Assembly: GCF_024713945.1 (NCBI RefSeq) | Contig: NC_134677.1 | Location: 7,648,001-7,712,000, forward strand | DNA length: 64,000 nt | Source: Dermatophagoides farinae | Lineage: Eukaryota > Arthropoda > Arachnida > Sarcoptiformes > Pyroglyphidae | Reading direction: 5' to 3' | Part shown: positions 15,699-54,025 of the stretch, one piece after another | How the letters are laid out: every line of letters begins with the position of its first letter | Numbering within the stretch: the first letter of the stretch is position 1 | Notes under the pieces: generated by a model | What the model saw: the letters and a program-made list of their open reading frames with translations, nothing else | Told to the model about the DNA's origin: nothing | The model's database searches: none | Made by a program: the position numbers and the translations under genes

Positions 15699-15699
15699 T
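15694..15699 (-). terminator. polyadenylation signal of the IFT140 homologue, overlapping its stop codon
   Basis: On the minus strand the last codon runs straight into AATAAA (tgAATAAA), and a second AATAAA follows within 8 bases at 15687-15692. This supports the view that the transcript really ends here and that the short C terminus is not an annotation accident. Confidence 0.6.
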
Positions 15700-18697
15700 C
15701 ATTGTTGCAATGTTTCTCGATATCTGGCCAATTCGTCTTCTGCTTGTGCTTTTGTATAGAATCGAATCACCTGATCAGTATCTTCATAGTTGATTGTCTG
15801 TAGAAAATTTGCAGCCAATTTAAATACCGTTCTATCACGAGCAACATTTGCAAATTGTATTATTTTATCCGATTGGCCGGTACGAATCAATGCTTTTATA
15901 GAATCCACTCTTTTACCGATTTTATTATAAAGTTTTGCTGCCAATTGATAATTACCTTTCTCTAAACATAATTCAGCTATTGTATTCATCAAAGATTGAT
16001 TATTTGAATGTTTCGAAACAAATTGTTCCAATTTTTCCATTATCTGATCATTTAAATCGATACCAAATTGATGAATCAACTGTGTGATTGAATCAAATTG
16101 TTCTTGATTCGACGATAAAAGTATTAGATCAATTACAATATCAACAATACTATTATCTTCGCGTAGATATTCAATAATTAAATCGATTTCATCCTGTCCA
16201 CTGATGAAACGTCGTTCATCTTTTTCCAATTCTTCTTGCAGACATCGGCGAAGAAATGGCCATAAACGATATTTGATTGCAAACAATATTGCCTGTTTAA
16301 TTAGGTCAGCTTTATAATAAAGCATTGCCATATTTTCTTCACTGACCATTTTATCTTGAAAATCATTTTGTAGTGGAAAATATCGTTTAATTATATTTCT
16401 ACATTCATTCATCGTAAGATATTTGATGGCAATCATAACCAATTTATCATAATGTTCATATGCAATACAAACACGTATTGCATGTCGTATGGCTGAACAG
16501 TGTAGATAATAATCAATCGATTGTAAACTATCAATGGATTCAAGATGTTTACCAAGAAATAATATGGCACCTGTCATTTCAGGCGTTTCACTGCCACTAC
16601 CATCATGATCATCATCAATATTATCATTCAATTTTATTTCATCCGATCGTTGTTGTAGATAATCATCAACCAATTCAATGGCTTTATCTTTTTGTCCTAA
16701 ATGACATAATAATCGTACAAGATTATAATGATCATTTGCTAGACGATACATTTCCAATGCTTTTGAATGATCACATTGACTTTCACAATATTGACCCCAC
16801 CATGAAACTAATTTCGTGTCATATTTTTCATTCTTCTTTTTTAGACAATAATTTTTCAAATCCACTATATTTTCATTTTCAAACAACATTCTTACAATTT
16901 CGCCAACATTATCAGCACGTTCAAAATAATTGATTGAATCCATAATACGATTTTCCATTTCCATTTGTTTACCATATTGATAATGAAGATTTTTCAATTC
17001 AATTTTATCTGCACATTCAAAAGCTTTTGGCCATTTTTCTTGCAAACAATACAATTTACATCGTTGTGATGGTTCAATTTCCAATAATAATTGTTCAGAT
17101 TCTTCAATTAGATCCAAATGTATCATCATTAGGAATAGAACAATTTGATGATGACCATTTTGTGTTGCCATCTCTTGTCTTAATGTTCGTACTAAGCCAA
17201 CATTACCCATTTTTGCTAAACAAATGAATGTCCAATCAATATTTTTTTCCATTACACATTTTCTTGCCATCAATCGCCATAATTCATAATTATCTTCATC
17301 ATCATCATCATCATTCTTTGAATCACAATATAAATATTTTCGAAAATGATTTTCATCATCTGAATTAATCAACATATTTTCAACATATTCACGTTTATTC
17401 AAATAATATTGTTGATGTTTATTTTTAATAATGCAAATACCATTATTATTGTTCATTTTGAAAATGTATAAATCAGGTATTTTATATGCAACAAGTTGAT
17501 TTACCGATTCCTCTGATTGTTCAATGCTATTGTTTTTGTTATTGTTTTCATTGTTGATAGCTGCTATCGAATCATATCGATAGCATCGTCCATTATTTTC
17601 TGGTGAATAAAAACAAAAATGAAATGTTTGTCTTGTCGATACACAGAATGAATGGTGATGTATTGAATCGAATTCAATTGCTATTATCGGTGATGATGAT
17701 GATGATGATGATGACGATTGTATGGGAATTTTATATTCAATTATACGATGATGGTTATCATTCAAATCGATTATATTAATCACGTTGCTGTTGCCGCCGT
17801 TACCACCACCAATGGTGAATGCAATCAATGTATTATTCCAATTCGTCTGTAATGATTGTGGATTTATTTTGCCACCTTCACCATCATAAATTGGCCAATG
17901 ATTTTTTCTTTGAAGATCTCTTGAATCAAGTATTTGATAATGTATAATTGAATTTTCATTTTCATTTTTAACATTATTATTATCTTTTTTCGATTCAAAT
18001 ATACATAGAAGCATATCTTTGTTTACATGATAACCACATAAATGATAATGATGATGATGATCACTTGGAACCGTCAATGACATTTGTGAAAAATCATTAA
18101 TTTGTTGTATCTGAAATTCTAATTGTCGATTATTATTGTTATTGTCCATTGATTGCTGCATTCGTCCTGACCACAATGCACCTAAATGTATAAATAATAA
18201 TTCGAATGATTGAATCAATTTCATTTGATTATGATGTTCAATACGACGATTTAATGTTGTATCGTAGAGAATAATTTTATCATTATCATCCAATATGATG
18301 GCCATCAAACAATCTTTTTCATTCAATGTAAACATTTTGATTGATGAATCACATGTAACAACAATCTGTTCATTGTTGTTGTTATCCATTTCATGTTTCT
18401 TTAGATCATCAATTGTCACTTGATTTCGTTCCGACTATATATATATTGTGTTTTGAGTTTTTGAAAATGAACATTCGAAAGAAATTTGAAAAAAAACGAG
18501 ATATTGATATTGGAAACGAAAGAAAAAAAAATAAAAAATTTAAATGAAAAATGATCAAACAAAAACAAACATGTCAGTCTTTGATAATCATCAATCTATC
18601 AATATGAAATGAATTATGAACAAACCTTAAAGGCTACTAGATTTCCTGAACGTTGAGATGTTCGTTGTTGTTGTTGATGATGATGATTTTTAGCCAT
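15699..18697 (-). CDS. IFT140: intraflagellar transport protein 140 homologue, shortened
   Basis: IFT140 is a core subunit of the IFT-A complex that carries cargo in retrograde ciliary transport. Exon 1 (18697-18626, 24 residues, His/Gln-rich) joins in phase 0 to a long exon from 18434 to the stop at 15699, about 935 residues in all. The N-terminal 380 residues resemble the end of the first and the second WD40 region. From about residue 400 the TPR-like helical repeats match human IFT140 well: LMARKCVMEKNIDW, SWWGQYCESQ, a MYRLANDHYNLVR stretch and LAAKLYNKIGKRVDSIKALI. Human IFT140 is about 1460 residues, so most of the first propeller and roughly 190 C-terminal residues are absent. The first exon boundary is predicted from phase and a TAG acceptor and is the least certain part. 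Confidence 0.82.
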
Positions 18698-19015: not shown

Positions 19016-21406
19016 TTAGTTTGAGATAATGATCATATGATGAAATACAATACTGATAAATAATAATAAAAAGTGTAGATGATAAATAGATGAATTGATG
19101 ATGATGATGATTGCATGATTTTTACTTTGACAATCCACAATCGACATGGCAGTCATAAATTCATGTCCCAAATATTGGCGATAATCACGACGATTATCCA
19201 TTATCGATTTGAGTTTAACAGTTGAATCTTGAAATATAAGATTCTTATATTTTGGTTCCGATACAAACATTTTGAATGTAAATTCATTTGAATATTTAGA
19301 TCCATAAAATTGTTGTGCATAAACAAATAATGTAATATAGGCTTCTTTCTGATAGAATGGTTTAAATCTATTCGTTACGATTGCATTGTTGGCCACTTGT
19401 CCTAGATTGCAGCCACTATAATCTTGTACTTCGGCTCTTGATCCATCACGACATAATAGCTCAAAATCATCTAAATATTTATTACGTGCCCAATATTCAG
19501 GATTGATACCATTTGTATTTTCAAAAATGACTGTATGTTTTGCAAATGCAACATCACCACCACCTTCAATCAGGCATTGAAATGCACCATTATCACCAAA
19601 AAATGGTTCCGATGAATCACGACGACAATAACGATATGAACTACCATGACAAAGATTGCAAAGATTATTATATTGCCATACTGATGATTTACTGGATTGA
19701 TGATATTCTGGTGCTAATACACCGGGTATACAGGATTTGGAGAAAAATTGGGATGCTGCTTTCACAGCATTACAACGATATGAACGCATACGTGAATTTG
19801 ATAATAAAAATGCCATCGGTATAACCCAACCGGCAGCTGTACGATATCCTGAATGACAAGATTTTCGACCCTTTAAATACAATAGATCAGTATCAAGATC
19901 AGCTTTTTTGGCTATAGCCACTGCATAATAACTGTCATTTAGATTATTTTGTTCAGCCATTATTGGTTCAATATTGTATTGTTGTCCGGCCATATAAATA
20001 TCTGCAGCATCCAAAACGGTTAGATCGGCTTGTCCTTGTTGAATTTTTTGCATACAATCAACTGTATTCGATCCTTGAACACACAATAATTGTGGTTGTA
20101 ACATATTCGTACGAAAAGCAGATTTCATTTTATTACATTTTTCCCATTCTTTATTGGAAACGACACATAATTTTGCATTCGGTACATTACATTTTCTGAG
20201 CTTTTCAAATAAATTTTCAATATCAACAAATGGATTGAATAAGCTAAAATATCCACGAAATGTTTGCCGATAACGATCAACAGGTGCTAATGAAATGGTT
20301 TCTTCAGAGAAAATAAAATCCATTCCACCATATTTGAATGAATCAAATAAATTGAATGATGATGTTGTTGTTCTTGATAATGACATTGGATCCATTTTAT
20401 TTAATGAAAAAATTCTTGATGAATCCAATAGAAATTGTTGAATTTTATCCCTAATTTCGGGTAATATAACCGATGATACAAGAATAGCATGTGGTGGTAC
20501 ATAGCCCCAATTACAATTAAGATAATTTTCCACTGAAGTACGATCACCATTTGGACAAAGTAGCTGATAATCTTGTCGACGAATACGATGAATTCGTGAT
20601 AATTGATCAACCACTGTATGTTTTACGAATGCAACATCACCTTTGTTGCGGAGACAATTCAAGGCACCTTCAAAATTGGCATAGAAATCATTTCCAGAAC
20701 ATTTTTTCGATTCACAAAGTAAACAAATTTTCTGTGGATTCGTACCGATTGGATTATTTTTATCAATTAAAGCATTTGGTGCACAACTTTCATTGAAAAA
20801 ATTGGCAGCATTTTGTATGATATTATTACAATCAATTGTATCGATGAGATCCATTTCTAATAATTTTATAATGGGCAATATCCAACCGGCCAATTGTCCA
20901 ACACCACTGAAACAGGCATTTTTATTTCGTAAATCTTTTGGCTGTTGAATGTATGTATAGGAATTAGCTTTGACAACAGCAACGGCATAATATCCGGTTT
21001 GATTTGTTGGACCATATTGTTCATAAACAATCGGTACTAAACTATGATATCGTCCAGCAATATAAATTTCACCAGGTTCAGCACTAACCAAATGTGCTCG
21101 CTGTGTTTCAATCAATTGCATACAATGATCTTTATTATCAGCTTCAATACATTCTAGACGGAAATTGAAATCGATAATTATCATCGACAGCACGTGACCA
21201 ATCACGACATTTATTCAATTCATTATTATTGATTGTACAATATTTTAATGTTTGTTTCTGTGTAGATGCTGTTATTATTATAAGTAATAAAATTAAAAAT
21301 CAATCAGAAAAAAAGCAATACCAATTAATTACTTACCTGTTTGAATGATTAAATGTAATAGGAAATAGATGATTTGATTCAAATATTTTGGCGACATAGT
21401 CGACAT
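19016..21406 (-). CDS. Tsf2: two-lobed transferrin, Tsf2/melanotransferrin-like
   Basis: Transferrins bind or sense extracellular iron; the insect Tsf2 branch is membrane anchored and serves epithelial junctions. Exon 1 (21406-21337) codes a hydrophobic signal-peptide-like start; exon 2 runs from 21268 to the stop at 19016. Both lobes are clear: each has the YYAVA strand with an iron Tyr, a cysteine-rich AGW loop, a SCxPG/SCAPN cysteine and the DVAFxKHT motif with the iron His. The C terminus is a hydrophobic tail consistent with a GPI or membrane anchor. Several ligands differ from vertebrate transferrin: the second iron Tyr is Phe (N lobe) or Asp (C lobe), and the anion-binding Arg is Gln or Thr. 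The reading frame shifts by one base between the cysteine-containing start of exon 2 and the main ORF, near 21160-21200. Confidence 0.88.
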
Positions 21407-28052: not shown

Positions 28053-30262
28053 ATGTATGAAATGAAGAACATCATCATAATCATCATATCATTATTGGCT
28101 ATGCTGCTGCCTTTTTGGATTTTAGTTACAACAACAATAATAGTCGATGCTCATCCAATTAATCATCATTATAATAATAATAATAATAATAATAATGGTC
28201 CATATGTATCAACTGGATATAATAATAATAATAATAATGATGATGATTCATTATTAATACAAACATCACGTGGTATGGTACGTGGACAACGTGTACGTTC
28301 ATTAAATGGACGTTTAGTTGATGAATTTTTGGGAATACCATTTGCTAAACCACCTATTGGTGAATTACGTTTTAAACATCCACTTCCAATAGATTTTTGG
28401 GATGGTATATTCAATGCTACACAAAAACCTAAATCCTGTTATCAGGTAGCTGATCATACATTTGGTATGAATTTTTTAGGTACCAATATGTGGAATGTTG
28501 ATCAGACTAACCTTGATGAAGATTGCCTTACATTGAATATATGGGTACCATATCCAAGGCCTAAAAATTCTGCTGTATTAGTATGGATATATGGTGGATG
28601 TTTTTATTCCGGTTCAATATCATTAGATTTATATGATGGAAAATTATTCGCTACAGAAGAGAATATTATATTTGTCAGCATTAATTATCGTCTTGGTAAT
28701 CTAGGTTTTCTTTATTTTGAAAATACCAATGATATTGTTGGCAATGCTGCTATGTTTGATCAGGTAATGGCATTACAATGGATACATACAAATATTGAAA
28801 AATTCGGTGGTAATCGTCATAATATAACATTATTTGGTGAATCAGCCGGTGCAACTAGTATTGCTTATCATCTATTATCACCATTAAGTCAACATTTATT
28901 CAGTCAAGCCATATTACAGAGTGGTGCACCAACCGTACCATGGGGTTTGGTTGATAAGAAAAAAATTCATCAACGTGGCTTAATGTTAGCAGAATCGGTT
29001 GGTTGTCCATATGATGATCAACAAATTGATCGAGTACTTGATTGTTTACGACAAACAGATCCGGCATTATTAATGCAGAATGAATCGACTGATGCATATG
29101 GTGTTGTTGAATTTGCATTCACACCAATTGTTGATGGTGTTTTCTTGACTGATTATCCGGAAAAATTGATGCAAGATAAACGTTTTAAAAAGACACGTTT
29201 ATTATTAGGAAATAATAAAGAAGAGGGTACATATTTTATTATCTACAAATTGAATGATATATTTAAATTTGAAGAAGATGTCTATCTAACACGCGCCGAT
29301 TTCAATAAGTCAGTCAGATTATTAACACCAAATATGCATCCAATAGGACAATCAGCAATCATTTATGAATATACTGATTGGTTGAATCCAGATGATCCAA
29401 TTAAAAATCGTGATGCTATCGATAAGATTGTTGGTGATTATCATTTTGTTTGCCATGTGAATAAATTCGCCGATCGTTATGCATCGGTTGGTAATGAAGT
29501 TTATATGTATTATTTCACACATCGTTCAACAAAAAATCCATGGCCAAAATGGATGGGTACTATACATGGTGATGAGATTCCATTCATATTTGGTGAACCA
29601 TTAAATAAATCGATTGGTTATACACATGATGAAATTGTTTTAAGTAAACAAATGATGAGATGTTGGTCTAATTTTGCTAAAACTGGGTATGTTCAATCCA
29701 TATCAATCAATCGTATTTATTGTGTGATTGGTTTTTTTTTTTTGATTGAAATTGTTTGTGTTTTTTTTCTCATTATAAAACAAAAATAGCAATCCAACAA
29801 TGGATGAGAATGGTATATGGTCACAATTACATTGGCCTTTATATACAGCATATAAAAAAGAATATCTTACATTTTCAACAAATTACAGTATTGGACAAGG
29901 AATACGTACCAAGCAGTGTGCCTTTTGGCAAACCTATTTACCTCAATTAATGGACAATCTAAGTAAGCATGAACATTAGACATAATATAATGATTGATAT
30001 TGATATTGATATTTTTCTATTGCTGATGATTAATTGATCATTTGATTAATTTTTTTTTTATTATTGTTTTCTCTCTTTCTCTATTTTTTCTCTTTGTGGT
30101 AAATATTTAAATGTGAATGCAATAGCTTTACTTGAAGAAAAGATTCACATGTGCCATAATTCGGCCATATCATTATTCAACCAACGATTTAATATGATGA
30201 TGATGATCATCATCAACATTATTATTTCAACAACAACAATCATCACCGTTGTCGTCGTTTAA
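28053..30262 (+). CDS. Ace: acetylcholinesterase (secreted, probably GPI-anchored)
   Basis: Acetylcholinesterase hydrolyses acetylcholine at synapses and is the target of organophosphates and carbamates. Three exons, 28053-29686, 29790-29962 and 30126-30262, join in phase to 647 residues (a second ATG at 28062 is equally possible). In order: signal peptide, Asn-rich insert, the alpha/beta hydrolase. Visible catalytic features are Ser in GESAG, Glu in NKEEGTYF, His in GTIHGDEI, the choline-site Trp in NMWN, acyl-pocket FAF, a peripheral Tyr in FYSG, and the six cysteines of the three disulfides including the KQCAFW one. The C terminus ends in a hydrophobic Ile/Val/Thr tail typical of GPI addition. 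The oxyanion-hole motif reads YGGCFYSG, with Cys where Gly (Torpedo 119) is usual. A catalytic esterase rather than neuroligin, because the triad is complete. Confidence 0.93.
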
Positions 30263-35153: not shown

Positions 35154-36758
35154 ATGGAAAATAATAATTTAATATCTCAATATGGTGATGATTGTGGTAA
35201 ATCAGTATTGCCTAATAAACATAAACGTCAATTAAACCACAATAATAATAATGATGATGATGATGTTGATGATCCAACTACAAACAAACGAAATCGAAAA
35301 ACTATCACTATCGATGACATTATTGATGGATGTTATGGTTTTTTCTTAAACGAAATACCCGATCGACCGGATAATCAATTGAATGGTTTTCATACAATTA
35401 GCCTAAAATCAATATTATCAAATGAAAATGGAAAGATAATCGAATCTATTCATTTTAATTTTTTATACAATCTTGAATGGTAATTATTAATTAATTAATT
35501 AATTGATTAGCATAATATATTGATTTTTTTTCGTTCACTTTTCTTTTATTCAAAAAAAAATAGGCTTATCGATCACTATCCAGCCAATTGTCGTAATTCT
35601 CCCATTTATATTGTTTTTGGTAATAGTCCTCAATCAAGAATTGAATCATGTTCATATTCAAATGTAAAATTATGTAGCATTAAATTGAATGGAATTTATT
35701 CTTGTCATCATTCGAAAATGATTATATTACATTATGAAGATGATTCCATTCGGATAATTATTCTTACAGCTAATATGACTCCATTGGATTGGTATACTGT
35801 TACACAAGGTATATGGATTAGTCCTAAATTGAAAAAGAATAACTTGAAAGAAGATACATCAAAAACAAATTTCAAAAATGATCTGATTCAATATTTAAAG
35901 GCTTATGAACATAAATCTATTGTAATGTGGATCAATATTATCCAAGAATACGATTTTTCACCCATCAATGTATTTTTAATTGGCTCAATTTGTAATTCAC
36001 ATGGAAATGATGATCGTGAATCATTTGGCCATTTGAAAATTCGAAAAATATTGCGAACAAGCCATTATGGACCTACCAACGAAATAAAAAATTGGCCAAT
36101 CATTTGCCAATTTAGTAGTATTGGATCATTAGGTAAAACACCACAGTCATGGCTAACTGCACAATTTTTGGCTTCGTTTTCAGCCACATATAATGATTTC
36201 AATGGCATTAAACCGGAATTAAAATGTATTTATCCGACTATTGAAGATATATTGAATAGCCTGGATAAAAATGGAACTTGTTTTCCATATATCAAATCAA
36301 CGGCTGATAAACAGCCATATTTGAATGATTTTTTCTATCGATGGAAAGCATCCATATCTGATCGTAATAATGTCATGCCACATATAAAAACGTATGCACG
36401 TATATCACCGGATAATAGAAAAATGGCCTGGTTTTGTCTTACATCGGCTAATCTATCGAAAGCTGCATGGGGACATTTAGTTAAAATTGGATCAAAACTT
36501 CGGATTTTGAATTACGAACTTGGTGTACTGTTTTTGCCAAAATTGATGGTTTGTTGAAAATGGTTTTTTTTTTCTTTCAATTAATTAAATTAAATTTTGT
36601 TTTAATCTTTTTTTTTCTTGCAGATAAATCAAGATTCATTTAGTATTAGCCAAAATAATCCACTTTTCTTGCCTTATGATCTTCCATTGGTTAAATATGA
36701 TCCAGAAAATGATAAACCATGGATCAATAATAATAATATTAATACTTTCACGGTATGA
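35154..36758 (+). CDS. TDP1: tyrosyl-DNA phosphodiesterase 1
   Basis: TDP1 removes stalled topoisomerase I from DNA 3' ends in the nucleus. Exons 35154-35479, 35564-36548 and 36624-36758 join in phase to 481 residues. After an acidic, disordered N terminus (about 60 residues) comes the phospholipase-D-like fold. The first HKN site is YSCHHSKMIILHYED with TANMTPLDW after it; the second is MPHIKTYARISPDNRKMAWF with TSANLSKAAWG, then NYELGVLFLP. Both catalytic His/Lys pairs are present. Human TDP1 is 608 residues; the difference is the shorter disordered N terminus. The last exon may end at TGA 36756-36758 or splice on at ACG|gtatga to a very short extra exon; both give nearly the same protein. 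Confidence 0.95.
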
Positions 36759-38410: not shown

Positions 38411-38505
38411 TGTTATTAAATAAATAAAATTCGTTGGTTTATTATTTAAATCGAATATTCATTCATACAAGTAATGTTGTTTGGATTGTTTCAAATCGAA
38501 CGGAA

Positions 38506-41173
38506 ATGTCCAATAATCAAAAAATAAATGATTCATCATTGAATCATGAAACGAAATCATCATCATCGCAACAACAAAAACAACAAGATCCATTATCGGA
38601 TCAATTAACGGAACATCCTAGTACAACGAGCCTTGGATTTGGAACCGAAAGCAGTATCACTGTCGTTGTAAGCTTAGAACAAGATGGTATACCTAAACAA
38701 ACACCGGTGGCAAGTTTTCCATTCGATCAGAAACTTTTCAACAATGATGATATTTTTGATTGTTACCTGATTGCATTCGAATGTAGCCAACATAAACGTC
38801 TAGCATTACAAAAGATGTCAAATCAATGTTACTTTTTACCGATCATTAAATTTAACAATGAAAATGATTCATTCGATAAAATTTTCAAAGAATTCATTGA
38901 TTCCAAGATAATTGCATTGCCTAAAGGAAAAATTTCACCACCCAAATTCATTGATCAATGGCGTGTACAACAACCAAAAACCGAACAATTTTTTGTTCGT
39001 TTCATCGTAAAATCAATCATTGAACCAAAAGAAAAGTGTTGTATTGATAGCGATACAGTTCGTTGGCTGAACCAAGATGATCTAAAAAATCTATTGAATC
39101 CAATGTCAAAAAATCTTCTTATCTGGGGCCTGGAACCGTTCAACATTCTTAACACACAACAACAGCGTAAAAGTGGCAATCTAAGAGAATGTCAATTTGA
39201 AGATATTTTACGATCTAATGATCAGAATATTAACGAATTAATTGAATCGGCGGTTGATTGGAATGAAGATGAACGAAAAGCAATCTATAATGAATATCTT
39301 GTCCATTGTTATCCATCGGAAACGATGTCATTCCCGGCATTCATTAGTTTTGCATTCAAAATATCCATACTGAATCATTTTACACCGAATGAATTACGAA
39401 TGATGTATAAATCATTTGATCGGAATCATAAATTTGCCATTGATTTTCAGCAATTGATCATTGGCATCATATTGATGATGGATGATAATGATATTAGTCA
39501 TCGTAGCCCATATTGGAATGAACAAAGATTCATATCATTATTTCATTATTATGATTTAGATGATGATAATCGTATCAACAATGAAGAATTGAACAATTTA
39601 TTTAAAGATTATTATGAAAAACTTGACACATTTCTTGTTGATCATACAGTGATTCCAGAATGGATGAAACAAGAAAAAAGTCGTGATAATTTTGTAATCA
39701 ATATGATGCAAAAATATACGGATAATTCAACAAACGTGACGGCAACACAATTGGAAAAAATTGTGAAAGAATTTTCACAATCATATTCACAAATACCACA
39801 AATGTGGCAGCTATTATATCGAATGCCATTCAATGTTCTGTCATATGCATCGGTTACGTTTTGTTATCGAAAAACATTTCAATCATCTTATTACGGTGAT
39901 TTGTATTTGAATGGTGATTACAAACAACAACAACGATGGCAACAAATTAAATGTCAGAATTGTTTACGAAATCGATTTGCTCTTTCAAATCAAGTAATTT
40001 GTCTATCACTTGAAGGTGAAATCAGTGACATCATAAGGCTGGAACCATTTTCCCCAAAATCAACATTATCATTCATTGTAGATATACCGGATGATGATAT
40101 ATATCTGTTGACCATTGATGTTTTAGTTCGATTACAGCGTTTATCATTATTTTTATTTGGCAATGAAAGATTTAAAGCTGCTGCTGTTAATAATAATGAA
40201 CATGAAGAATTGTTGAGAAATTGGTTTTTCCCATCACGAATGGAAATGTTGGAAACGATACGAATCATTGTGCAGACTACGATGGAAATATTTGCTAAAG
40301 AACGGCGTTGTATTGAAATTCAATCACCATGTTATGTATTTGGTGATTTACATGGTAATTTCAAAGATCTTATAACATATTCACAATATTTTTGGAAATG
40401 TTCACCATTTTTGAATACTGGCAAATATCTCTTTTTGGGCGATTATGTTGACCGTGGTGATCATGGTATCGAAGTGGTTATATTTTTGTTTTGTTTCAAA
40501 ATATTGGCACCAAATAATTTCTATATGATTCGTGGTAATCATGAAATACGTGATGTACAACGGCGATTTACATTTTTTGCTGAATGTGAAAAACGTCTTA
40601 GTGTTGAAATCTGGGACCTGATTAATGATTGTTTTGATTGTATGCCATTGGCTGCCGTTATTGATGATTGTATTTTTGGTGTTCATGGTGGAATTCCGGC
40701 AACTATTTCGACTATTAAACAAATTTATGATATTCCAACACCGTTATCGAATCCATTACGACAAAATATTGCTGCATGGGAAATGCTGTAAGTTTTCCAG
40801 TTTATCCAGAATCCAATTTTTTTTAACTTAGTTAATCATATATTCTAGTTGGAATGATCCAATCAATAATGAAGAATTATTATTACTACCGAAAGAACAA
40901 CGTAAATATCTTACCGATTCAGCAAAAGGATTTGGTAGAAATTTTAAACGTGGTACTGGATATTTATTCAGTGAAAATGCTTTGAAAAAATTTCGAGAAA
41001 AAAATGGCATCGATTTTATTATACGTGCACATGAAGTTTTCGCTGATGGATTTTATCTCTATTCGCGTGGAAAAATTATTACTATTTTTTCTTCATCCGG
41101 TTATTCATTTCCATCGAATTCGGCTTCCGTTTCGTTAATATCGAATAATAAGATTCGAATAATAAAAATTTAA
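38506..41173 (+). CDS. PPP-family Ser/Thr phosphatase with N-terminal EF-hands
   Basis: Exons 38506-40787 and 40849-41173 join in phase 2 to 868 residues. The ATG at 38506 is preferred because the ORF upstream of it has no other ATG. Residues 1-40 are Gln/Ser-rich; 40-240 form an unrecognised domain; about 290-370 hold EF-hand-like helices with one canonical loop (DLDDDNRINNEE, about 349-360) and a degenerate one (DRNHKFAIDFQQ). The catalytic domain fills 600-868: GDLHG (613 on), GDYVDRG, RGNHE, VHGG and RAHE are intact, so it should be a metal-dependent phosphatase. The order, EF-hands before the catalytic domain, is the reverse of PPEF/rdgC, where they follow it. Calcium control is inferred. 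It ends 27 bases from the stop of DENND10. Confidence 0.85.
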
Positions 41174-43682: not shown

Positions 43683-44765
43683 TTAGAATCCATATTTTGC
43701 TCTTGTCTGTGATTTCGATAGACGATTCTGTGCCCATTGATTTTTTAATTCTAATTCACGTTTTTTAGCCTGATAAGCAAGAAATGTAATCTGATTCTTT
43801 CGTTTGGCCGTTGAATTTGGTGCTTTTGCTTCCAGTGCTTCATCTACGATATCTTTTTCCAATGAAATATTTTTTAACCAATCTTTGTTTTCTGACAAAT
43901 GTTGATTAAGATTTACATCGATAATTTTGATATTCTCAGTATTATCATCGAATTTTGATGCAATGTATTTTTTATATGTTATGTCATCATTTGGATCAAG
44001 ATAATGGATCGATGATTGTTCTTCTTGTTCGATTGGTTTGGATGGGCCATAAATTGGTGCCGATATTTTTTCCTTTTCAGCTTGGTATGATGATGAACAG
44101 GGTTCAGGTGGATAGTTGAAATCCATAACTGTTTTATTATTCGTATCTTCTGTCAGCCAAGGTTTTGGAATCATTTTGATTTTAACATTATCATCATCAT
44201 CAGCATCATCGTCGTCATTGTCTGAATCAGCGAAAAAGAAATTTGAAACACTTTCTTTTTCTACCGTTTTTAATTTTGTAGATAATGAAGTTTTTTCAGA
44301 AGCTTTTGTACGATTCGAAACAGAATTCGGAACCAAAGAAACTAGAGAAGAGGTTGTTGATCCATTTGTGGTTTGTTTATCGCTGTTTATGATAGTTGTT
44401 TTAGGTTTAGGCAACATTGATATCAAACTTGAACCTTTTTCCGAACGTTTCATGCGTTTTCGTGCACGATTATCTTCATCATCGGAATCACTATCTTGTC
44501 GATTCGTCACTAAGTCATCATCAAAAGCTTTAATTTGTATCCGAGAATTCGATGTGATGAAATTTGTTGGTTTTGTAAGACTTTTAAAAGTTAATGAAGA
44601 AAGTGATGATGATAATGATGGACGAGAATGAACATTTGTGGATTTTATATCTGAAATTGAATGAATCGATTTCTGTTCATTTGATTCGGATGGCAAAGTT
44701 TCTGAAATTACATCGGATTCATTTTCATCATCATCATCACTAGAACCATAATTAACCAAGGACAT
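43683..44765 (-). CDS. PRCC: PRCC-family nuclear protein
   Basis: PRCC is a nuclear, splicing-associated protein known from renal-carcinoma TFE3 fusions. This is a single exon of 360 residues from ATG 44765. The start MSLVNYGSSDDDDE matches the PRCC N terminus; the middle is Ser- and Asp-rich and disordered; the C terminus carries the conserved block RKNQITFLAYQAKKRELELK followed by NQWAQNRLSKSQTRAKYGF, nearly identical to human PRCC. Human PRCC is 491 residues with a long Pro-rich half that is largely missing here. It faces LC3 tail-to-tail (120 bases between stops) and ZFPL1 head-to-head. Confidence 0.95.
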   Translation of the reverse strand: MSLVNYGSSDDDDENESDVISETLPSESNEQKSIHSISDIKSTNVHSRPSLSSSLSSLTFKSLTKPTNFITSNSRIQIKAFDDDLVTNRQDSDSDDEDNRARKRMKRSEKGSSLISMLPKPKTTIINSDKQTTNGSTTSSLVSLVPNSVSNRTKASEKTSLSTKLKTVEKESVSNFFFADSDNDDDDADDDDNVKIKMIPKPWLTEDTNNKTVMDFNYPPEPCSSSYQAEKEKISAPIYGPSKPIEQEEQSSIHYLDPNDDITYKKYIASKFDDNTENIKIIDVNLNQHLSENKDWLKNISLEKDIVDEALEAKAPNSTAKRKNQITFLAYQAKKRELELKNQWAQNRLSKSQTRAKYGF

Positions 44766-48752: not shown

Positions 48753-51347
48753 ATGGATATTGAATTTGAATTCCTGATTAATTCGTTGAATATTTCATCA
48801 AAATATCCACCGGTAAGTTTTAAATCAAATTGTCTATATGAAATTATCATATTATTTGTTTTTTTTATGAAGAACAACCTACACATAGATTTAAAATCTG
48901 ATTTATGGCTAAGATGTCAACAAATCATAGCGAATCTGAAAAAAGATTCCGAAGCATTTGAAATACTACAGGAATATTATATTTATAATTATCGTTGCTA
49001 TCTGACCTATATGCTCAAAGAATATTGGTCAGATTTCCTACAGAATTCATCGAAATACAAAGAAATTGTTCCATCACAACATCGATTAATTTTTCATAAA
49101 TTCAATCAACTTAATGATTTCATTTCAAATTGGCTTTACCAACCATTGCTCGATTTATTATTCGATTCCAATGGTGAACAGACTCGAAAACTTAATGAAA
49201 TTCTATACACCGGATTGATTGCCGATATGCCATTATTGTTTTCCAGTTTTTTATTCAATACATTTGCATTTTCATTCGCAGTTCTAGATTATACCGTCGC
49301 GAACAAAAAGAAGGAAACGATTGGCCATGAACAATCGAAATGTAAAATTTGTCGATTCAAACGTTCCGATAATAATGATAATGAAAAGGCTTGTTATTGT
49401 GAAAGTATGAGCAAAGGTTTCATTCCATTCCTGAATGTACTACGTAAATTGGGCATATTTCATCAGCTTTGTGATGATATCATCAAAAGTGTTTTATTCA
49501 AAATGATCGAACGACAGATTTGGAATCTTTGTAAAGATAAAAATTTCGAACTAAGTTGTTTAAGTATAACATGTTCATGGCTTGAGAACAGTATAATTGA
49601 TTGGATGAAGATTATCTACATCATTAAATCAACGGATGAAAATGTTCCCGATATGTTTGTTGCACTCGAACAATATAATACAGCGATAGCAGCGGTAGAA
49701 GATGAACCGATGAATAAATATAATAATACTGGCAGTGGAAATGAATTGAATACTCTTTTTCTCAAAAATAGTAGCCTAACCTTATTCGATCAAATTGAAA
49801 GTTTAAATCTAAACATTATTCGCAGTTTTCTCACGAATACCTATATTTTTAATCGAATGAAACAATTATTCGACATAATCATCGATTATCCATATTCTGA
49901 ACCGGCTATCTATGATCTACATGAGTGTATACAATTGGAACCATTTTATCGTGAAATATTTACACATTCATTGAAGAATGCATTGGAAATACGTTTATTA
50001 CATGCCGGTGTTGCTACCAGTAGTATAATTGAAGCATATCTAACCACAATCAAAGCATTACGTTTATTAGATCCACAAGGTATCATCCTACAGATTGTTT
50101 GCGATCCAATTCGTAATTATTTGAAAACACGTGAAGATACTGTTCGTTGCATAATAAACATTCTTACTACTGATAGTATTGTTAATTTCGATGATCCTGA
50201 TCATTTTAATAAGCTAATTAATGATGAAGATGAATATGTAATGGATACATGGCGTTCATGGGTACCACAAACAATTGGTGTTTCAAAAATGAGTAAAGAT
50301 TTAGCCAATTCAGATATAATATCAATGTTGATCAATATTTTCGATAGTAAAGATTTATTCGTACAAGAGTATCAACGTTTATTGGCACAAAAATTGATTC
50401 TTACACCGGAAATTAATCTTGAATCAGAATTACGAAATTTAGAATTATTATCATTAAGATTTGGTGAATCTGAACTTCATAATTGTGAAGTAATGCTTAA
50501 AGATCTTAAAGATTCTGAACGTATTAATCAACAAATTAATGGATTCGATGAAATGAAAACGGCTAATCTGAAAATGAATGGCCTAATATTATCTGAACAA
50601 TTTTGGCCTGATAATCTTGGATTTACTAGTAATGAATTTAAAAATTTTCGTCTACCCGATGAAGTACAGCAAGTGTTTGATAATTATAAAAAATTTTTTG
50701 AAACATTAAAAGGAAATCGTACGGTTAATTGGATACAACAGCTAGGAATGGTAAAATTAGAATTAGAATTCCCGAACGGTAGTCAAGAATATTCGGTTCG
50801 TCCAATTCAAGCGGCAATTATTCATCTATTTCAACGAAAAAATCAATGGTCCACGACTGCAATCGCACAGGAATTGGATGTTTTACCATCAGTCATACGG
50901 CGAAATTTATCGTATTGGAAAAATATTGGTATCGTAAAAGAATGTGATGGAGAAGATGATTCGCATATGATAGTGGAAGATTTACCACCACCATCATCAT
51001 CAGTGATGAAACAACAACAATGTTCAGGTTTAAATTCACAAGAATTCGATATGATGTTCATCGATCATGATGATGATGATAATGATCATGGTACAATGAA
51101 TAATCAGCAAAAAAATGAAAATAATCTGCATTTATTCTGGAATTTTATTGATAATATGCTGAAAAATTTACATGCACTTTCATTAGATCGTATATATTCA
51201 ATGTTGAAAATGTTTAACATGCAATCACCGGAAATTGAAAATCTATCCATGCATGAATTACGTGAATTTCTTGATCGAAAAGTTTATGAAAAAAAATTAA
51301 TCTTTATCAATGGCCTATATGATTTGAATAAATCGGATGGTGAATGA
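48753..51347 (+). CDS. ANAPC2: anaphase-promoting complex subunit 2 (cullin)
   Basis: ANAPC2 is the cullin scaffold of the APC/C ubiquitin ligase and binds APC11 through its C terminus. The ORF is 864 residues from ATG 48753; human APC2 is 822. A 60-nt segment at 48813-48872 begins gtaagt and ends ttttttatgaag without interrupting the frame, and reads as hydrophobic nonsense; it is probably an intron, giving about 844 residues. Family blocks: LRFGESELHNCEVMLKDLKDSERINQQI, the SEQFWPD cullin strand, VKLELEFPNGSQEYSVRPIQAAIIHLF of the cullin C-terminal region, and the winged-helix end LHALSLDRIYSMLKMF. An Asp/His-rich insert lies near residues 770-790. Confidence 0.95.
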   Translation: MDIEFEFLINSLNISSKYPPVSFKSNCLYEIIILFVFFMKNNLHIDLKSDLWLRCQQIIANLKKDSEAFEILQEYYIYNYRCYLTYMLKEYWSDFLQNSSKYKEIVPSQHRLIFHKFNQLNDFISNWLYQPLLDLLFDSNGEQTRKLNEILYTGLIADMPLLFSSFLFNTFAFSFAVLDYTVANKKKETIGHEQSKCKICRFKRSDNNDNEKACYCESMSKGFIPFLNVLRKLGIFHQLCDDIIKSVLFKMIERQIWNLCKDKNFELSCLSITCSWLENSIIDWMKIIYIIKSTDENVPDMFVALEQYNTAIAAVEDEPMNKYNNTGSGNELNTLFLKNSSLTLFDQIESLNLNIIRSFLTNTYIFNRMKQLFDIIIDYPYSEPAIYDLHECIQLEPFYREIFTHSLKNALEIRLLHAGVATSSIIEAYLTTIKALRLLDPQGIILQIVCDPIRNYLKTREDTVRCIINILTTDSIVNFDDPDHFNKLINDEDEYVMDTWRSWVPQTIGVSKMSKDLANSDIISMLINIFDSKDLFVQEYQRLLAQKLILTPEINLESELRNLELLSLRFGESELHNCEVMLKDLKDSERINQQINGFDEMKTANLKMNGLILSEQFWPDNLGFTSNEFKNFRLPDEVQQVFDNYKKFFETLKGNRTVNWIQQLGMVKLELEFPNGSQEYSVRPIQAAIIHLFQRKNQWSTTAIAQELDVLPSVIRRNLSYWKNIGIVKECDGEDDSHMIVEDLPPPSSSVMKQQQCSGLNSQEFDMMFIDHDDDDNDHGTMNNQQKNENNLHLFWNFIDNMLKNLHALSLDRIYSMLKMFNMQSPEIENLSMHELREFLDRKVYEKKLIFINGLYDLNKSDGE

Positions 51348-52321: not shown

Positions 52322-54025
52322 TTAATTATTTTTATTTTTCAAAGATTTAAAAAATAATTCATTTCTTATAAATAAACATAATTCAGTTTCGAAAAAATAA
52401 AGAAAAATCAAATGACAAATAGCAACTATAGCATTGATTATTATGAATATAATTGCTTTTGACCATAGGAATGTATGAATATCAATGAGATCTAACCAAC
52501 GATACAGTGTTGAAAGCCCAATGAATATGATAACATATGACAACATTGTATGAATATTTGGTCGTGTTTGTCTTATGAATATCCATAGTGAATAATTTGG
52601 ATAAACATTTCCGATAAACAGTAGGCTAATAATGATTCGGGTCATCATATTCAGACAATTAGCCATAATGAAACCAATACTACCAACATATGAAGTGATT
52701 ATCAATGAAATTGCCGTAAAAATGATCGATGTTATCATTAGTTTAACATTGAATCGATTCAATTGTCCAGTATTCATCACTGCAAATGAATATGATTCAA
52801 GTATACCGTTAATGGCAATAAATATAATGTATATACAATGCCATTGAAATAGACGAATGGCCAATGTTCCATATGTTCCATGTAGGAAATTTGAACCACC
52901 ATACACGGATAATACAATCATTGCACCATGATATCCATATGTAAATAATGTCAAACCAATTATTGTCATCAATTTCGTTAGATTTGAACAGATTGATAAT
53001 GATTTTACAATTTTTGTCGTCTGTTGACTAGCATCCAGATCACGTTTGATAAGGCTTGAAAACAATATGTATCCATTTTCTTCGATTTGTTGAAATATAA
53101 TCCGAGCCGGTAATGATCCAAGATTATTGATTACATCATATACACCTTGTTCAGCAAAACTAATGACCGAAAACATGGTCATTATATAACGTTCACCTTC
53201 AGTAAGAAATTGTTTCAATAATGAATTGTAGAAAAATGTTAATGATGTTTTTAACAGACTTAATTCATCTGTTTTCATATTATAATCTTCATCATTTTTT
53301 TCACGAAGAAATCTTGGTAAAAATGTTGTCATTGGTATTTTCATTTTCAATAGAAAATAAATATAATAAGTAAGAGAATAGATTGTCGAAGCAACAAGTT
53401 GAGCTATTGCAAAACCAAATACAGAATGTTCAGGTGAAATATAGACAAATATTGCTAATAATGAACAACGAACAGTTTGAAAGATGCCTTCAACAATTAC
53501 TTTCAATCGAATATAATCATATCTTTGTCCATAGATGAAAAATGTTTCAGCCATGGATTCGATAATTACCGAAACATAGATCGACATGATTGCCCATTGA
53601 TATTCTGAAAGTAAATGTTCAGGTCTTTCGAAAACTTTATACCATATTATGGAGAATGTAAGGCCTGTTATAAATGATAATGGTATGGAAAGAAATGTAA
53701 TATTGACCACCTTAGACCAGGCTTTTTGATTCATTGATTTTGATACATTGTGATCATCATCATCAACCGAATTGTTTGGTGCACATGTTCGCCGAAATGG
53801 TTCTCTAGTGGTGAATTGTATTGTCGTATATAATAACAATAATCGTACATTGATTATGCCAAGTGTTTCTTTAGTGATGAATCGAAGAATAAAAGCATTG
53901 ATTATAAAACTAAAAATACGAAGACCAATTTGTAAAACTATATTATATGCCGTCGATATTGTTGTTGTTTTCAATTTAGATTTTATCCGCGGAGAATCTC
54001 CGTCATCGATTGCGTTTGGTTCCAT
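52322..54025 (-). CDS. RFT1: RFT1, ER multi-pass protein of N-glycan precursor synthesis
   Basis: RFT1 is required for Man5GlcNAc2-PP-dolichol to reach the ER lumen; whether it is the flippase itself is debated. A single exon of 567 residues (human 541) with about a dozen hydrophobic segments. Family signatures: YNIVLQIGLRIFSFIINAFILR near the start, FTTREPFRRTC (highly conserved in RFT1), QFLTEGERYIMT, and YDVINNLGSLPARIIFQQIEE followed by LFSSLI, then ILESYSFAVM. The loop insert after the REPFRR motif is Asp-rich. RFT1 and CRELD start head-to-head, 279 bases apart; both are ER-linked. Confidence 0.96.
   Translation of the reverse strand: MEPNAIDDGDSPRIKSKLKTTTISTAYNIVLQIGLRIFSFIINAFILRFITKETLGIINVRLLLLYTTIQFTTREPFRRTCAPNNSVDDDDHNVSKSMNQKAWSKVVNITFLSIPLSFITGLTFSIIWYKVFERPEHLLSEYQWAIMSIYVSVIIESMAETFFIYGQRYDYIRLKVIVEGIFQTVRCSLLAIFVYISPEHSVFGFAIAQLVASTIYSLTYYIYFLLKMKIPMTTFLPRFLREKNDEDYNMKTDELSLLKTSLTFFYNSLLKQFLTEGERYIMTMFSVISFAEQGVYDVINNLGSLPARIIFQQIEENGYILFSSLIKRDLDASQQTTKIVKSLSICSNLTKLMTIIGLTLFTYGYHGAMIVLSVYGGSNFLHGTYGTLAIRLFQWHCIYIIFIAINGILESYSFAVMNTGQLNRFNVKLMITSIIFTAISLIITSYVGSIGFIMANCLNMMTRIIISLLFIGNVYPNYSLWIFIRQTRPNIHTMLSYVIIFIGLSTLYRWLDLIDIHTFLWSKAIIFIIINAIVAICHLIFLYFFETELCLFIRNELFFKSLKNKNN

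Follow-up and report, generated by a model that had tools for sequence, protein, structure and literature searches.

Which acetylcholinesterase (AChE) does the dust mite Dermatophagoides farinae rely on, and what follows from a cysteine in its oxyanion hole? In insects, position 119 (Torpedo numbering) is well known for target-site resistance, and a cysteine occupies the equivalent position in an AChE gene within the 64,000-nucleotide stretch analyzed here (NC_134677.1, positions 7,648,001 to 7,712,000; hereafter the window, to which all unprefixed coordinates refer). The answer depends on whether the gene is intact and catalytically equipped, whether the genome holds another AChE, how unusual the residue is, and how cholinesterases with a side chain at this position behave.

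Results

An intact acetylcholinesterase gene, probably of ace-1 type

The AChE gene occupies 28053-30262 on the plus strand and is intact, with three exons encoding 647 amino acids. Exon 1 (28053..29686), an open frame of 545 codons with a Pfam COesterase match of 469 bits, codes for residues 1-544 plus two bases and comprises a hydrophobic and low-complexity N-terminus followed by the bulk of the catalytic domain. Splice-site enumeration placed the remaining parts: intron 1 (29687..29789, GT...AG); exon 2 (29790..29962), which carries the C-terminal part of the catalytic domain with Cys588 and across which homology to mosquito AChE1 (6arx) continues; intron 2 (29963..30125, GT...AG), with a second in-frame acceptor 12 bases downstream; and exon 3 (30126..30262), which carries Cys612, a hydrophobic C-terminus and the stop codon at 30260-30262. 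Two of the splice-site combinations tried stay in frame to this stop, giving 647 or 643 residues. The hydrophobic C-terminus would fit the GPI-anchor type.

The best phmmer match in the PDB was 5ydj (E 1e-182), which, like 5x61, we take to be Anopheles gambiae AChE1, and 256 of 486 aligned residues are identical between the mite enzyme and 5ydj/5x61 (MAFFT). A tentative ace-1 placement comes from bit-score ranking of the best 60 of 155 PDB matches: the five top sequences, presumably all mosquito AChE1, score 604-611 bits and the next 507, and no ace-2 chain was identified among these 60. On this homology, the fold can be regarded as already fixed. Torpedo numbers were assigned through what we take to be the equivalent motifs. 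The Ser-Glu-His triad is present (S264, E391, H505): Glu263-Ser264 (Torpedo E199 and catalytic S200) lie in a GESAG elbow at 28839..28844, and the catalytic His505 (Torpedo H440) is encoded at 29565..29567, both on the plus strand in the frame from 28053. The choline site and aromatic gorge are complete (W84, E199, Y121, W233, F290, F331 and Y334), D72, G117, G118, Y130, S200, A201, E327, W432 and H440, also checked in the active site, are present, and the mite enzyme shares Tyr at position 330 with 5ydj. Six of the nine cysteines in the protein sit at conserved intrachain disulfide positions (C129, C158, C318, C331, C467 and C588), presumably pairing into the three conserved disulfides; the others are Cys612 near the C-terminus and Cys183 and Cys537, which are unpaired by disulfide count.

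The AChE neighborhood consists of ordinary animal genes. A Pfam scan of nine of the 12 open reading frames of 250 amino acids or more, spanning 15699-54025, left two of the nine without a match and identified an IFT140/172-like TPR protein (15699-18419, minus strand), a transferrin (19016-21205, minus), a tyrosyl-DNA phosphodiesterase (35520-36557), a metallophosphoesterase (38434-40791), PRCC (43683-44765, minus), an APC2 cullin (48753-51347) and Rft1 (52322-54025, minus).

Cysteine in the oxyanion hole

Codon 183 reads TGT (28599..28601, plus strand) and encodes Cys183, the equivalent of Torpedo position 119 and the second oxyanion-hole residue, within the sequence VWIYGGCFYSGS. In the phmmer alignments, Cys183 is paired with the Gly of 5ydj and with the Ser of 6arx and 6ary, which we take to be Anopheles G119S mutants. 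The Gly118-Gly119-Ala201 oxyanion hole is incomplete in that Gly119 is replaced by Cys and Gly118 and Ala201 are kept; a side-chain-bearing residue is thus present at 119, as in G119-type insensitive AChE. Since G119S alleles are themselves ace-1, Cys at 119 does not exclude ace-1 membership. The original prediction had read this gene as an astigmatid mite AChE with Cys at codon 183 and all remaining catalytic and choline-site residues present, and it holds in identity, residue and numbering: the cysteine codon aligns with the G119S Ser of mosquito AChE, and every residue checked was found.

Two more departures from the mosquito enzyme lie in the acyl-pocket approach. Selective targeting of the thiol of the insect GICEF Cys has been suggested, and the peripheral-site Trp279 is variable among cholinesterases. 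The mosquito GICEF Cys is Val in the mite enzyme, and the peripheral Trp is missing from residues 343-354 (NESTDAYGVVEF; 29079..29114, plus strand), the acyl-pocket approach ending at Phe354 (Torpedo F290), where its place is taken by Ser beside a one-residue insertion (phmmer) or by Thr (MAFFT). By our own mapping, Torpedo W279 corresponds to W417 of sand-fly AChE1, called the “peripheral site wall” in excerpted text of PMC4268798. Given these changes, ligands of the peripheral site and thiol reagents aimed at insects may be ineffective against the mite enzyme; with the GICEF Cys gone, Cys119 would be the candidate thiol instead.

Search for another acetylcholinesterase

The assembly (62.4 Mb, 22 contigs; the window is G000:C1:7648001-7712000) fits D. 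farinae in one gene: among seven group 2 allergen-family matches, L040 encodes a stretch that equals solved Der f 2 (1ahk) at 111 of 112 residues and scores lower with Der p 2 (230-232 bits) than with Der f 2 (252). The assembly was searched in six frames, with 59 matches to Pfam COesterase and 47 to the AChE protein as query. These were tallied as 38 loci (eight from the 59 Pfam rows and 30 from the 47 protein rows) and, counted by hand, as 27 separate genes, of which column 119 could be read in 26 (L036 was left out); protein-search rows beyond the tally were exons of tallied genes, further fetched stretches and one C6 match to the N-terminal low-complexity region. As read from pairwise tblastn alignments of low identity, the full choline site (W84, E199, W233, F290 and Y334) occurs in the window AChE alone among the 26 carboxyl/cholinesterase genes readable at 119. 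W84 was aligned in two genes, the AChE and L021, the latter without E199, W233 and F290 and not a cholinesterase; column 84 was unreadable in L028, L030 and L033, all of which are without the catalytic Ser.

Other searches agreed. The DNA of 28400-29000 returned one full-length match in the assembly, itself, and four partial ones at 64-74% identity. A degenerate oxyanion-motif pattern run over the genome found the AChE and one carboxylesterase (control, 0), and a looser Gly119 DNA pattern hit three places, none a COesterase match, against two in the control, which we read as chance. Eight further regions beyond the 38 loci were taken from the assembly; they are neuroligin-like or part of the degenerate cholinesterase-like gene L012/L053. 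The GESAG elbow is absent from L046, L047, L048 and L050, which resemble neuroligins, and was not reached in L049 and L051.

Pfam, protein, DNA and motif-pattern searches turned up no further canonical AChE carrying Gly119 in the assembly, and we rejected the existence of one there; the case of a non-synaptic paralogue accompanied by a separate Gly119 AChE was thereby sought, and no such AChE emerged. Carboxylesterase-paralogue identity of the window gene was ruled out because the full choline site is kept. Its being the only gene with that site among the 26 readable ones, together with the failure to find a second AChE, was counted in favor of its role as the main AChE. According to excerpts of the published surveys, one AChE gene was counted in each of four arthropods, including M. 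occidentalis and Drosophila (PMC7738191; we take the remaining two columns to be A. lycopersici and T. urticae, making three mites and the fly), and trombidid mites have a single AChE gene copy each, clustering with tick AChEs (PMC6275457).

The nearest paralogue, L012/L053 (G000:C5, ~2468888-2470600, minus strand), is 46% identical over the matched part and has a hydrophobic N-terminal stretch. As a second AChE it was rejected: its residue at 119 is Leu, W84 is missing and the elbow reads GTSAG. This degenerate cholinesterase-like gene perhaps encodes a non-hydrolytic or altered cholinesterase. In four other loci (L029, L032, L033 and L019) the oxyanion residue is His, Glu, Ile or Ser and the catalytic Ser is replaced by Asp or Gly; these are probably non-catalytic cholinesterase-like proteins.

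Rarity of cysteine at column 119

Among prokaryotic relatives, column 119 holds Gly in 46, Ala in 27, Ser in six, Thr in one and Cys in none; this base rate comes from an alignment-based contig scan and covers the best 80 of 595 confirmed relatives, a non-random sample. That scan returned prokaryotic relatives only and no mite sequence, and a contig scan with the mite protein alone gave 17 pattern matches and no relative, with no match in viral contigs. Within the D. farinae genome, the 26 readable genes have Gly (12), Ala (4), Ser (3), Cys (2) and Leu, Phe, His, Glu and Ile (one each); for the 20 genes with both Ser200 and His440 the counts are Gly 11, Ala 4, Cys 2, and Ser, Leu and Phe one each. 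The two of 26 genes with Cys are the AChE and carboxylesterase L031. Cys at 119 is rare and unusual, yet apparently tolerated twice in this genome.

L031 (900-2650 of its locus; G000:C7, near 1165600-1167340) reads HGGCF at the oxyanion hole, adjoins L021 (GCSAG elbow) and by eye appears intact apart from its putative introns. It shares with the AChE the Cys in the same column and the retained Ser and His; it differs in having Tyr aligned at W84 and a GNSAG elbow, and is not a cholinesterase. This second esterase with Cys alongside Ser and His was counted in favor of a working Cys119 enzyme.

Discussion

Our best explanation, to which we assign a probability of about 0.6, is that D. farinae has a working ace-1 type AChE in which Cys119 would slow turnover and strongly cut attack by bulky organophosphates (OPs) and carbamates, more likely as a settled trait. 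In the mechanism we propose, the Cys119 side chain would fill oxyanion-hole space beside the catalytic serine, like Ser119 of resistant mosquitoes, so that the thiol-bearing group would sterically crowd the oxyanion hole and the acyl region. Acylation by acetylcholine would then be slowed, acylation by bulky OPs and carbamates would be slowed further, and choline-site ligands would be less affected. The steric mechanism is the most likely one because both Ser and Cys have precedents at the same site. D. farinae may therefore be naturally insensitive to OPs and carbamates.

The precedents, quoted from excerpts of the cited papers, are quantitative. With G119S, sand-fly AChE1 showed sensitivity losses of 1336-fold (paraoxon) and 19,213-fold (propoxur), others of only 5.8-fold (tacrine) and 5.0-fold (donepezil), and a four-fold higher Km (PMC4268798). 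Small or special carbamates lost little on the same enzyme (eserine 27-fold, one pyrazole carbamate 18-fold; PMC4268798), which we counted against reading the mite enzyme as carbamate-insensitive. Turnover also suffers: the G119S enzyme of Anopheles has a 34-fold lower kcat and that of Culex a 30-fold lower one (PMC3462181), and human BChE G117C gave 0.14 units/ml compared to 4.4 for the wild type and 2.3 for G117S (PMC5859046, Table 1). Enzyme amounts aside, the G117C figure is about 3% of wild-type activity units, and Cys may thus be costlier than Ser. Given so low a figure, the mite enzyme would need compensation. The side chains most affected by G119S in a sand-fly model are Y258 and F425 (PMC4268798), which by our own mapping are Y121 and F290; in the mite these two are unchanged, the assembly has no amplification of the gene, and no compensating change was identified. 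The predicted change in inhibitor sensitivity is plausible in the light of same-site precedents in other enzymes (G119S; BChE G117C/H/D; pNBE A107C), which uphold it in part. Searches of open-licence PMC papers, with passages of a few of them consulted, yielded no inhibitor data for D. farinae AChE and no residue-level data for mites.

Whether Cys119 is a trait or an allele bears directly on this reading. A settled trait of D. farinae or its lineage is more likely, about twice as likely as a recent allele, because the gene is not amplified in the assembly and because stock cultures of dust mites are unlikely to be under strong OP selection. The most serious rival, which we consider unlikely, is selection of Cys119 as a resistance allele in the strain that was sequenced, with Gly in other D. 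farinae. Cys is one base change away from GGT or GGC, and the same position has been selected repeatedly in mosquitoes, according to excerpts of PMC3462181 and PMC4006752. However, the title of PMC5137868 states that all resistant Anopheles gambiae have amplified ace-1; the single copy in the mite assembly speaks against a resistance allele and, set beside that amplification, was also counted against the insensitivity reading. Neither G119C nor Gly119Cys was found reported together with cholinesterase in the open-licence PMC literature, which likewise argues against an allele under selection. Against the insensitivity reading, one Culex study found the G119S-equivalent unassociated with propoxur resistance (PMC4006752, excerpt), so the link to resistance is not universal even for Ser, and diazinon is used to control Psoroptes ovis, a related mite (PMC12364353, excerpt), so insensitivity, whatever the P. 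ovis residue at 119, is not general among related mites. We hold only tentatively, and with the balance somewhat against it, the more far-reaching view that G119C is naturally fixed in the sole AChE of D. farinae, perhaps of astigmatids more widely, giving an OP- and carbamate-insensitive enzyme with a thiol beside its catalytic serine.

Beyond blocking access, Cys119 could confer self-reactivation after OP inhibition, making the enzyme a weak OP hydrolase. We regard this as improbable, and a weak self-reactivation, while possible, is less well supported than the steric mechanism. After paraoxon, B. subtilis esterase pNBE A107C reactivates at 0.15 per h compared to 0.03 in the wild type, which has Ala, and 0.0114 in A107G (PMC4100338, Table 4); this is a five-fold gain over wild type, but recovery reached only 40%, and His and Asp outperform Cys at pNBE 107 (PMC4100338). 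Other replacements at the site act on OPs, G117H and blowfly G137D hydrolyzing them (PMC3462181, excerpt) and BChE G117D dephosphorylating at 0.025 per min, but the G117C entry for dephosphorylation in the excerpted table is “??” (PMC5859046). It is still less probable that the enzyme is so slow that acetylcholine is cleared mainly by other means and the gene is drifting: the low G117C activity and the lost peripheral Trp are compatible with drift, but all three exons are open, the identity to the mosquito enzyme and the other active-site residues are kept, and no alternative cholinesterase was found in the assembly. A base-calling or assembly error at the single position is very improbable, for although the reference is a single assembly and the codon's third base opens a run of five T, the frame is clean throughout the gene and the base that turns Gly into Cys opens the codon, flanked by A and G and clear of the T run, where a substitution error would be unlikely.

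If the only AChE of this major allergen-producing mite naturally has Cys119, several consequences would follow. Many anticholinesterases would be expected to perform poorly against the mite, which would also serve as a natural experiment on the loss of catalysis that a nervous system can bear. The equivalent position in human AChE is Gly122 (PMC3462181, excerpt); a fixed Cys119 thiol, absent from the human enzyme, would be usable for selective inhibitors and open to mite-selective covalent ones, and slow self-reactivation may follow.

Set against known systems, the mite enzyme resembles arthropod AChE1 (5ydj/5x61) in its triad, choline site, six disulfide Cys positions, Tyr330 and Phe331, and differs in having Cys for Gly119, no peripheral Trp279 and Val for the GICEF Cys. 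It resembles G119S AChE1 (6arx/6ary and the sand-fly construct) in that a small polar side chain replaces Gly at the same position, whereas the mite residue is Cys rather than Ser and is not known as a selected allele, and the mite assembly shows no duplication. The same oxyanion-hole position is altered in human BChE G117C, G117S, G117H and G117D and in blowfly esterase E3 G137D; the BChE mutants are engineered and the blowfly E3 is a carboxylesterase, whereas the mite Cys is natural and lies in an AChE.
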